Positions 18,714-33,152 of a DNA stretch of 33,243 nt are shown here, in pieces. Numbering within the stretch: the first letter of the stretch is position 1; the number at the start of each line of letters is the position of its first letter. The notes under the pieces are model-generated. The model was not told where the DNA came from, did no database searches, and worked only from the letters and a program-made list of their open reading frames with translations. The position numbers were made by a program, and so were the translations under genes. This DNA is from Thiomicrorhabdus sp. (GTDB lineage: Bacteria; Pseudomonadota; Gammaproteobacteria; Thiomicrospirales; Thiomicrospiraceae): positions 1-33,243 of the forward strand of contig WFNQ01000262.1 in the NCBI GenBank assembly GCA_015488565.1. Reading direction: 5' to 3'.

Positions 18714-19338
18714 AAATGAGATAAGTCTCTTTAACACCATAACAACCAGCTTGCTTGCACAGTCTGGTTGGGAGTGGCTGGCGGCCAGCTTAGGCATAAC
18801 TTATGTATTATTAGCCTCCAAAACCTCTATTTGGTGTTGGCCTGCGGCGTTTGTCAGCACACTCATTTACACGTTATTATTTTGGGAAGGACAACTTCCC
18901 ATGCAGATGCTACTCAATGCTTACTACATGGGCATGGCCATCTACGGCTTTGCTCTCTGGCGACAACACAGCCAGTCCAATGCCACGCTTTCCATCACTA
19001 ATCGTCCACTTATATTTCACCTAACCTTCATAGGAGTAGGCATCCTATTAACAGGCATCATCGGTTTTTATTTAGCCAACCAACCCAATGCCAAACTTCC
19101 CTATCTTGATGCCATTATTATGGTTTTTTCGGTAATGAACATGGTTTTAATGGCAAAAAAAATCATCGAAAGCTGGCTCTATTGGATGGTCATTAACACG
19201 CTGGCGATTATGCTTTTTTTTCAAACGGGTTACTACGCCACCCTTATTATGTACTCTGTCTATTTAATACTCGCTTTTTATGGGTATTACCACTGGAAAA
19301 AGCTTAAAACCGCTCAGGATGCGCCATCCAACAATTAA
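18703..19338 (+). CDS. pnuC: PnuC/PnuT-type vitamin transporter
   Basis: A 211-residue protein with about seven membrane segments and the PnuC signatures WEWLAASLGITYVLLASKTS and WCWPAAFVSTLIYTLLFWEG, with later NAYYMGMAIYGFALW. PnuC-type proteins carry out facilitated diffusion of nicotinamide riboside (PnuC), thiamine (PnuT) or riboflavin (PnuX), with trapping by phosphorylation. The upstream thiamine-binding-fold gene argues for thiamine. The frame is open from a TTG at 18673, but the ATG at 18703 fits the family better. No clear ribosome-binding site is seen, consistent with coupling to the overlapping upstream gene. Its last 35 bases overlap the 3' end of the convergent kinase gene. Confidence 0.86.
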   Translation: MLVENEISLFNTITTSLLAQSGWEWLAASLGITYVLLASKTSIWCWPAAFVSTLIYTLLFWEGQLPMQMLLNAYYMGMAIYGFALWRQHSQSNATLSITNRPLIFHLTFIGVGILLTGIIGFYLANQPNAKLPYLDAIIMVFSVMNMVLMAKKIIESWLYWMVINTLAIMLFFQTGYYATLIMYSVYLILAFYGYYHWKKLKTAQDAPSNN

Positions 19339-20341
19339 AATCCCGCACGCCCAATACATTCATTTGAAACAACAATACGCGATACACCAATCGCGCTAAC
19401 GTTAAATCCGGTAGTGCATGATACGGTGTATAAACCGACAAAAACACTTCCGCTTGCTTTGGCGTTAATACATATTCCAGCATCACCAACTCTAGCTCTC
19501 TGGGGGCCCACACCATTGCATCTAAATCCAGCAACGCTAAATTTCTCCCCCCCTCTAATTGCAAAAATTGATCCCAACGGAAATCCAGCATAATCGGTTG
19601 AAAGCCATTGATGTTCAATTCATCCACTAAAGCCACCGTTCTCTCCATCGTCTCAACAGGAACGGTTGGGGTTTTATTTAACATCAATAACGTCTGTTTT
19701 AGGTTACGCTTCCATCTCGTTTTAGTCTTATGGCTAGAAGCCATGCTCTCCTCAAACAGCGCCCCAAAACAAGGCGCACTGTGTTGATGCAATAACGCTA
19801 CATGTTCGGCAATTTTCGCCACCTGATTTAAAGTCAATCGTTCCGCCGTAAGCCCTTGTCCCTCTAAATACTCTGTTAATAAAAATCCTGAAAATCTTAC
19901 TCCAGAGCACCCTCTCTTGAGCAAGCTCAATTCACCTTGCACTCCAGAGCACCCTCTCTTGAGCAAGCTCAATTCACCTTGTATCCCCCCCTCCTCCAAT
20001 GCATCCTGACTAGAAGCTGAATGAAGCAGCTTAGGAATAACCAAGGGTGACCAAGTGGCGATGCTTTGATACACACGGGCGTATTGGCCAAGACTGGATG
20101 CCAATTCAAATTCAAACACCCCCTCAACGGCTTGCCAAAAAGCAGGCGAGGCGCCATTGGATGTTGAGGACAGCTTTAAAAAACGCTTTTCCGAATCAAA
20201 CTGACACAACCAAAGTTGATGCGTACCATCCTCAAAGCCAGAGGGAATATTTTTAGCCCATTCACAACCCGAAAACAACGCCTGGTGCTCTGCACTTAAC
20301 AATGAATAAAAACAGGGGGGGGAAAAATTAAGCTTGCTCAA
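19304..20341 (-). CDS. Kinase-fold phosphotransferase (possible thiamine kinase) interrupted by repeats
   Basis: A 345-residue protein with an aminoglycoside-phosphotransferase/ThiK-like fold. A hinge-like FLLTEYLEGQGLTAERL (about 153-169) is followed by a Brenner-type loop MLDFRWDQFL (251-260; the usual His is replaced and Gln stands in for Asn) and by ALLDLDAMVWAPRELELV. Its position, converging on pnuC, suggests phosphorylation of the imported vitamin, but the substrate is unproven. Residues 121-148 are two tandem copies of QGELSLLKRGCSGV, encoded by a 42-bp repeat also present outside the gene. The frame begins at a TTG inside another copy of that repeat (20327-20359), and no ATG exists before the conserved part. 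The true start is therefore uncertain. Confidence 0.65.
   Translation of the reverse strand: MSKLNFSPPCFYSLLSAEHQALFSGCEWAKNIPSGFEDGTHQLWLCQFDSEKRFLKLSSTSNGASPAFWQAVEGVFEFELASSLGQYARVYQSIATWSPLVIPKLLHSASSQDALEEGGIQGELSLLKRGCSGVQGELSLLKRGCSGVRFSGFLLTEYLEGQGLTAERLTLNQVAKIAEHVALLHQHSAPCFGALFEESMASSHKTKTRWKRNLKQTLLMLNKTPTVPVETMERTVALVDELNINGFQPIMLDFRWDQFLQLEGGRNLALLDLDAMVWAPRELELVMLEYVLTPKQAEVFLSVYTPYHALPDLTLARLVYRVLLFQMNVLGVRDFNCWMAHPERF
19539..19554 (+). repeat. Poly-C motif (AAATTTCT-C7-T) in the kinase gene
   Basis: AAATTTCT, seven C, T, encoding LEGGRNLA on the minus strand just before the metal-binding LLDLD motif. A copy of the recurring motif in a coding region with no apparent insertion. 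Confidence 0.6.
19899..19982 (-). repeat. 42-bp tandem repeat (two copies) inside the kinase gene
   Basis: Two directly adjacent 42-bp units (19899-19940 and 19941-19982) differing at one base. On the minus strand each contains two small dyads, TTGAGC-TT-GCTCAA and AGAG-GGTG-CTCT. The length is a multiple of three, so the frame is kept, and the units encode QGELSLLKRGCSGV twice. A diverged 33-bp copy lies in inverted orientation at 20327-20359. A run of seven C (19985-19991) directly flanks it, as in the intergenic copy. Confidence 0.9.
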
Positions 20342-20401
20342 AAGAGGGTACTCTGGGGCAGATTTTTTTCAATGTGATTTTGTTGCAATTTTCTCCCCCC
20401 C
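20315..20401. repeat. Composite poly-G-ended palindromic repeat with internal double hairpin
   Basis: The left end is eight G followed by AAAAATT. The right end is AATTTTCT followed by seven C, so the ends are inverted copies. Between them lie a 33-bp match (20327-20359) to the kinase tandem repeat, then AGATTTTTTT, which also follows the coding copies in shorter form. The left end overlaps the first codons of the kinase frame. Confidence 0.75.
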
Positions 20402-21289: not shown

Positions 21290-21444
21290 CCCGCCCCCAC
21301 GACAACAAAGAAAGGGCTTACAGAAAACAAACAAATAAACGTCTGCTCTTTTACCCCCTGACAAGGGAAGGGCCTGCGGAAAACAAACAATAAACGCTTG
21401 CTCTTTTACTCCCTCCCCTGACAAGGGGAGGGCTGGGGTGGGGT
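21290..21444. repeat. Tandem 56-60-bp GC-rich palindromic repeats between pcm and fliT
   Basis: Two units (21314-21369 and 21370-21429) share GAAAACAAACAA(A)TAAACG, TGCTCTTTTAC and CCCTGACAAGGG, followed by a partial third (21430-21440). The last junction forms CCCTCCCC-TGACAA-GGGGAGGG, a strong dyad, next to GGGCTGGGGTGGGG. It resembles the CCCTCCCC/GGGGAGGG palindromic repeats widespread in proteobacteria. It sits in a convergent gap and may act as a two-way terminator. Confidence 0.75.
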
Positions 21445-33105: not shown

Positions 33106-33152
33106 GGGGGGGGGAAATATTTTGGATTGTAAAATTCTTCCCCCCCCCCTCC
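33106..33152. repeat. Poly-G-ended palindromic repeat, copy 2
   Basis: Nine G, AAATATTTTGGATTGT, AAAATTCTT, ten C, T, CCC. Arms and core correspond to the copy at 31095-31139 with small changes. It lies upstream of the DUF4105 gene. Confidence 0.8.

Follow-up and report, generated by a model that had tools for sequence, protein, structure and literature searches.

The kinase locus and its tandem insert

The DNA analyzed here (the window, 33,243 nucleotides) belongs to G000, a Thiomicrorhabdus MAG represented by a 1.79-Mb draft of 267 contigs. A minus-strand open reading frame in the window (Table 1) is translated as ...EEGGI-QGELSLLKRGCSGV-QGELSLLKRGCSGV-RFSG..., the doubled peptide being encoded by two units of a dispersed 42-bp repeat. 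PF01636 is matched by six of the seven kinase family members (best value 5e-8; 0.022 for the window protein by itself), and on this basis the gene is an APH-family phosphotransferase. An in-frame 42-bp tandem in a phosphotransferase gene had been proposed in an earlier note on this DNA, and Tandem Repeats Finder, the translation and the family match to PF01636 all bear it out. No Rfam match was obtained anywhere in the window, so that a known RNA family was rejected. Just past a PCMT-like gene lies another tandem repeat, of 55 bp and ~2.2 copies, which reads an ALPLSGEG-like peptide in antisense and appears unrelated to the 42-bp unit.

Table 1 Features of the window around the interrupted kinase gene
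Feature	Coordinates	Strand	Remarks
APH-family phosphotransferase gene with insertion	19304..20341	-	345 aa from TTG at 20341; ORF and orthologue scan
Tandem of two 42-bp units	19898..19981	-	Tandem Repeats Finder: perfect 42-bp period at 19899-19981, 100% identity
42-bp unit, copy 1 in reading order	19940..19981	-	In frame (QGELSLLKRGCSGV)
42-bp unit, tandem copy 2	19898..19939	-	In frame (QGELSLLKRGCSGV); top profile match of the genome, 7.5e-16
G7 run	19985..19991	-	5' half of the G-run motif entered by the unit
AGATTTT tract	19891..19897	-	3' half of the split G-run motif
Second G-run motif in the kinase gene	19538..19554	-	Unit-free (AGGGGGGGAGAAATTTA)
Third unit copy	20325..20360	+	5' end decayed (model positions 7-42); overlaps kinase start
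G8 run	20315..20322	+	At 5' end of third copy
C7 run	20395..20401	+	Closes palindromic shell around third copy
55-bp tandem repeat	21305..21427		Just past PCMT-like gene
G-run motif positions	10877, 12014, 15847, 19547, 25088, 25471, 28729, 31095, 33106-33149		

In a search of 40 relatives, matches to the kinase were interrupted at the insert (residues 119-147 in the closest relatives), and the 28 residues are missing from all orthologous kinases aligned, more than 20 relatives in total; the alignment that could have refuted an insertion thus came out in its favor. At the DNA level, the window sequence minus 84 bp is equal in length to the empty sites of the two nearest relatives, G011 (GAAGAGGGGGG-TAGAAATTTTTCAGG) and G022 (GAAGAAGGGGGGGGGAATTTTTTCGG), in both of which the G-run is present without the unit. 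Directly upstream of the G022 orthologue lies a Y1/RAYT transposase gene (L106 901-1881, contig C28) with no adjoining 42-bp unit. It can be regarded as virtually ruled out that the kinase inherited this segment from its ancestor or gained it merely by duplicating native coding sequence locally: slippage could indeed make a perfect two-unit tandem, but the absence of the 28 residues from every orthologue examined refutes the ancestral version, and the same unit is present in unrelated genes and spacers throughout the genome.

A 42-bp repeat family restricted to six genomes

The pattern of the 42-bp unit (CAAGGTGAATTGAGCTTGCTCAAGAGAGGGTRCTCTGGRGYA) has three matches in the window versus none in shuffled sequences, and its core has 55 matches at up to 3 mismatches in the window genome, compared to 3 for the reversed control. 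A wider genome search, suggested in the earlier note, places the unit in many other genes and spacers. Using a sequence profile built on 47 distinct units, we counted 48 copies in the window genome, 17 in G011, 16 in G043, 6 in G022, 4 in G045 and 3 in G016, whereas the other 26 genomes of the genus yielded only three marginal matches overall (0-2 each), none of them convincing. Among GTDB genomes, the unit core is matched exactly in four Thiomicrorhabdus MAGs only. The carriers are all drafts, and most if not all of them are MAGs. A total of 77 distinct copies, including those in tandems and in a MITE (see below), were read; units occur in tandem arrays and copies decay in place. An exact-pattern scan of viral contigs and blastn against phages and plasmids recovered no unit, and a phage or plasmid vehicle was rejected on these grounds.

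At least 14 loci, the window kinase included, contain unit copies inside open reading frames. In G000, these are the genes for KdsD, MurE, CoaE, a CHASE/PAS histidine kinase and an AddA/RecB-like helicase, which carries two copies in opposite orientations; further internal copies are found in TruD of G011, in an ABC ATPase of G022, and in AmgK, RarA, a YgjP-like protein and two unnamed proteins of G043. Three of the six frames of the unit are open and three contain stops; given also that 42 is divisible by three, the unit can be read through as 14 residues. Internal copies read QGELSLLKRGCSGV at 10 of the 14 loci and the antisense TPEHPLLSKLNSPC at the remaining 4, and the third open frame, YSRAPSLEQAQFTL, is used near N-termini only. 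It should be noted that ascertainment exaggerates this excess of open frames, because a closed-frame insertion would not appear as an intact open reading frame. Inserts occur, among others, in DNA-repair and tRNA-modification genes (L114, AddA/RecB-like; L225, RarA; L116, TruD), categories in which intragenic REPs of other bacteria have likewise been reported (PMC3733652).

Empty and filled sites

Orthologues from sister genomes were aligned for nine loci. The insert is missing from orthologues at all of them with the exception of the first AddA site, and eight of the nine insertions were seen in one genome only. At the first AddA site, G045 and G016 are without insert, and G043 apparently carries what is probably, from its sequence, a decayed and diverged form of the same segment. 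Independently, when CoaE is compared at the sequence level with a dephospho-CoA kinase of solved structure (1vhl), the segment shows up as extra. Together with an exact 42-bp insertion in a MITE, these filled and empty pairs support the earlier proposal of a mobile element tolerated within a protein.

In the cleanest pairs, the unit is located between the G-run and (A)GAAAATTT: for the ABC ATPase, the empty CAAACAGGGGGGGAGAAAATTTCTTCCCCCCC of G011 corresponds to the filled CAGATAGGGGGGGGA-unit-GAAAATTTATCCCCCCC of G022; for TruD, the empty GTTGAGGGGGGGGGAGAAAATTTAATCG of G016 to GAAGAGGGGGGG-unit-GAAAATTTAATTG of G011; and for the second AddA site (site b), the empty GGGGGGGGGATATTTTCGGGTGG of G043 to GGGGGGGG-unit-GGAATATTTTCGGGTGG of G000. 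For most loci, the G-run motif is found at the corresponding place in one or more of the empty sister sites; the unit thus enters a pre-existing motif, between the G-run and the A/T tract. A G-run of at least 4 is present within 14 bp upstream of 40 of the 77 copies, as opposed to 2.3% of random positions. At the KdsD and AmgK loci, the motif, too, is missing from some sisters, indicating that the motif itself is gained and lost. No consistent target-site duplication was detected, and only some sites have TA on both sides. The unit is inserted as a discrete 42-bp block, usually at the junction of a G7-10 run and ARAAATTTT.

An artefact of assembly or binning of MAGs appears very improbable. 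The genomes are drafts and long G-runs are error-prone; however, the six genomes were assembled separately and agree with one another, the difference between filled and empty sites is 42 bp and leaves the frames intact, and the copies nested in the MITE represent the same unit.

A clade-specific G-run motif at the usual insertion site

The G-run and AGATTTT stretches beside the repeat, already pointed out in the earlier note, are indeed present, but they constitute a separate clade-specific motif rather than part of the unit. This motif consists of G7-10 followed by ARAAATTTT (also A-G7..10-ARAAATTTT). With up to 2 mismatches allowed, AGGGGGGGARAAATTTT has 139-228 copies in each of the six unit-carrying genomes (10-20 for the reversed pattern) and 0-2 copies in each of the other 26 genomes of the genus, and at 1 mismatch there are practically no copies in the other sampled genera of the family. 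Stretches across the genome amounting to 292 kb contain 97 runs of G7 or longer, which extrapolates to 600 such runs per genome, with a bump at length 8, compared to 1 in 120 kb outside the clade; the extrapolated number of motif copies in the window genome is likewise ~600. Of the G7+ runs, 71% fall in open reading frames, versus 85% of the sequence being coding, and ~38-43% of them are followed by the A-tract pattern, as against 2-4% of the G4-5 runs. Convergent motif pairs make palindromes, as at window positions 33106-33149.

In several respects, the motif resembles the DNA uptake sequences (USS/DUS): it is present in hundreds of copies on both strands, is strongly over-represented in a defined clade, is under-represented yet common in genes, has a core followed by an A/T tract, and forms some inverted pairs that are possible transcription terminators. 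Several of these traits are on record for uptake sequences (PMC2346458). Unlike USS/DUS, the motif has a homopolymeric G7-10 core. In the literature searched, neither the motif nor the site preference of the unit was found described. To our knowledge, its sequence differs from any described DUS or USS. The motif may be considered a candidate uptake-type sequence, in the absence of functional data. Only tentatively can we suggest that this motif, possibly uptake-type or otherwise maintained by the host, is the landing site of the 42-bp unit and its port of entry for in-frame insertions at permissive gene loops, and that motif and parasite expanded together in the six species.

Units nested in a MITE

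A separate MITE with the ends GAGACCTTTGCACGA (TIR) measures 159 bp when unit-free and typically 201 bp with the unit. This MITE, with elements of 159-201 bp at L070, L076, L077, L085, L089, L093, L186, L191 and L192, is shared across Thiomicrorhabdus, and unit-free copies extend to the outgroup G018. In G011 and G045, the unit is nested in this MITE at two positions as an exact 42-bp insertion, between CACGGA and TAAAAAAGG and, in the opposite orientation, between GCCAGCTA and TTCGC. MITE copies of G011 share one unit insertion position, which suggests that multiplication of the MITE in this genome copied the nested unit. Neither insertion point contains a G-run motif.

These copies bear on whether any transposing enzyme is involved. 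Ectopic recombination or gene conversion among G-run motifs, perhaps via natural transformation, could in principle suffice if one motif gained the 42-bp insert and the shared flanks then copied it. Such a scenario accommodates the presence of unit and motif in exactly the same six genomes, the many copies lying within the motif, and the sister empty sites that are usually motif-bearing. Nonetheless, we consider it unlikely, although not negligible, because the shared flanks comprise merely ~8 bp per side and the MITE copies lack the motif at the insertion point, yet the TruD coding copy of G011 shares their subtype (GGTGCCCTGGGGTA). Recombination between motifs is hence not the whole story, and gene conversion as the sole route is weakened by the MITE-nested copies.

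Units at gene starts

The earlier note had also placed a related copy in inverse orientation outside the kinase gene. The copy, its plus-strand orientation and its G8 and C7 flanks were recovered, but it overlaps the kinase start instead of lying outside the gene. Its arms are 81-90% complementary to the coding copies. The TTG at 20341, antisense within this third copy, is the start of the annotated-length kinase open reading frame, and the window has nothing that corresponds to the ATG of the sister kinase (ATGAGCACCCCC in G022). Units at gene starts were observed at window 20325-20341, L004 897-1538, L002 24-641, L066, L062, L016 and L065; the kinase, MobA, TadA, a GHMP kinase and other proteins may owe TTG starts or N-terminal residues to these units. 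In the window genome, three tandem units (L001 62-187, contig C44) contrast with two (L002, contig C106), both at contig ends. The two tandems look like they adjoin the same tadA start, and the difference suggests strain-level copy-number variation within the population.

Domestication of the inserts, with the peptide or the DNA selected for regulation, as a linker or for start-codon supply, would fit the absence of an upstream ATG from the kinase and MobA open reading frames, to which units may provide the start codon or the N-terminus, as well as the reading frame kept in diverged copies such as that of AmgK. It is nevertheless very improbable, given that the host proteins are unrelated, that the insertions fall in variable loops and with few exceptions are confined to a single genome, and that three frames are used.

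Unit structure and relation to known repeats

Two dyads are present in the unit. The longer, of 14 bp (TTGAGCTTGCTCAA), shows compensatory changes (TTGAGTTTACTCAA, TGGAGCTTGCTCCA), and the shorter, of 10 bp (AGGGTRCYCT), one-sided changes only. In the 14-bp dyad, three pairs show double changes and 95.4% of cells are paired; there are 7 double-changed cells, compared to a shuffled mean of 2.2. On its own strand, a single unit folds weakly, little better than shuffles, whereas the fold of the reverse strand has a z of -2.45; an alternative pairing of the unit shows no excess of covariation. A stable RNA hairpin as the functional unit was rejected in view of the weak own-strand fold and the lack of covariation excess for the alternative pairing. 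The palindromic character proposed earlier therefore holds for the two dyads, with some covariation in the longer one, but not for one long hairpin, palindromy being modest.

Palindromic repeats that code for protein have been described chiefly in Rickettsiales, in an archaeon and in some REP-bearing genomes. Like the Rickettsia palindromic elements (RPEs) and the protein-coding palindromes of Wolbachia, the unit is a dispersed non-autonomous repeat found in frame in tolerant loops of unrelated housekeeping genes and in spacers; in those systems, too, insertion is in frame in housekeeping genes and spacers and the mobilizing enzyme is unknown (PMC10969869, PMC2229807, PMC2996958). In-frame presence in unrelated conserved genes combined with absence from orthologues (nine loci) is a property of RPEs that the unit shares. 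By contrast, RPEs measure ~105-150 bp, form a long stem-loop and carry terminal inverted repeats of 12 bp, whereas the unit is 42 bp, has two small dyads and weak single-strand folds, and lacks a long stem-loop or terminal inverted repeats; furthermore, its host is a gammaproteobacterium whose genus is free-living, and it favors a defined G-run motif. The likeness to RPEs drawn in the earlier note is thus one of behavior, not of identity.

With REPs, the unit shares a size near the 20-40 bp range, a dyad with a 2-nt loop, clusters and intragenic copies (PMC3733652), and the complementary changes in its short 14-bp dyad are REP-like. However, the unit consensus has no GTAG or CGTC beside the dyad; the only GTAG is one that spans the 3' junction of some copies, with T at column 41 in 35 of 53. 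Five of the six genomes contain Y1_Tnp loci, 11 in total, and no unit was found in the flanking stretches examined; G016 has units with no Y1_Tnp match. Mobilization in the RAYT/REP manner was rejected for want of a unit near any Y1_Tnp locus in these stretches. Finally, the unit resembles bacterial MITEs in being a short, non-autonomous, mobile repeat, but its ends (CAAGG.../...GGRGYA) are not inverted repeats and no target-site duplication is established. By analogy, the unit would work like RPEs and intragenic REPs yet belong to neither, nor to MITEs, because it fails the size and hairpin of RPEs, the tag and RAYT neighbor of REPs, and the inverted ends of MITEs.

Implications for the evolution of protein-coding repeats

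Collectively, we consider it likely that the tandem in the window is a pair of 42-bp non-autonomous mobile repeats of a six-species Thiomicrorhabdus clade, moved in trans and with a target preference for G-run junctions. Under the mechanism that we infer, an unidentified enzyme would move the unit in trans in the manner of REPs and RPEs, favoring G-run/A-tract junctions; selection would retain only open-frame insertions at flexible loops that tolerate 14 residues; and the unit would also hitch-hike inside the 159-bp MITE in G011 and G045. The interrupted genes may be translated through the insert into working proteins, an inference without expression or enzyme data. The mobilizing enzyme was not found, the Y1/RAYT genes having no adjoining unit.

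The question addressed by these observations is how protein-coding repeats enter genes without breaking them. Small selfish DNA appears to build new protein segments outside the Rickettsia group, where the phenomenon is best known, and related genomes provide the states before and after insertion at many genes, including those for MurE, KdsD and CoaE, which serve the cell envelope and coenzyme A and are probably essential. A rule is visible, the unit entering a G-run motif that is already in frame at tolerant positions. With the before and after states and this entry rule at hand, both the insertion mechanism and the effects on the enzymes become directly testable.
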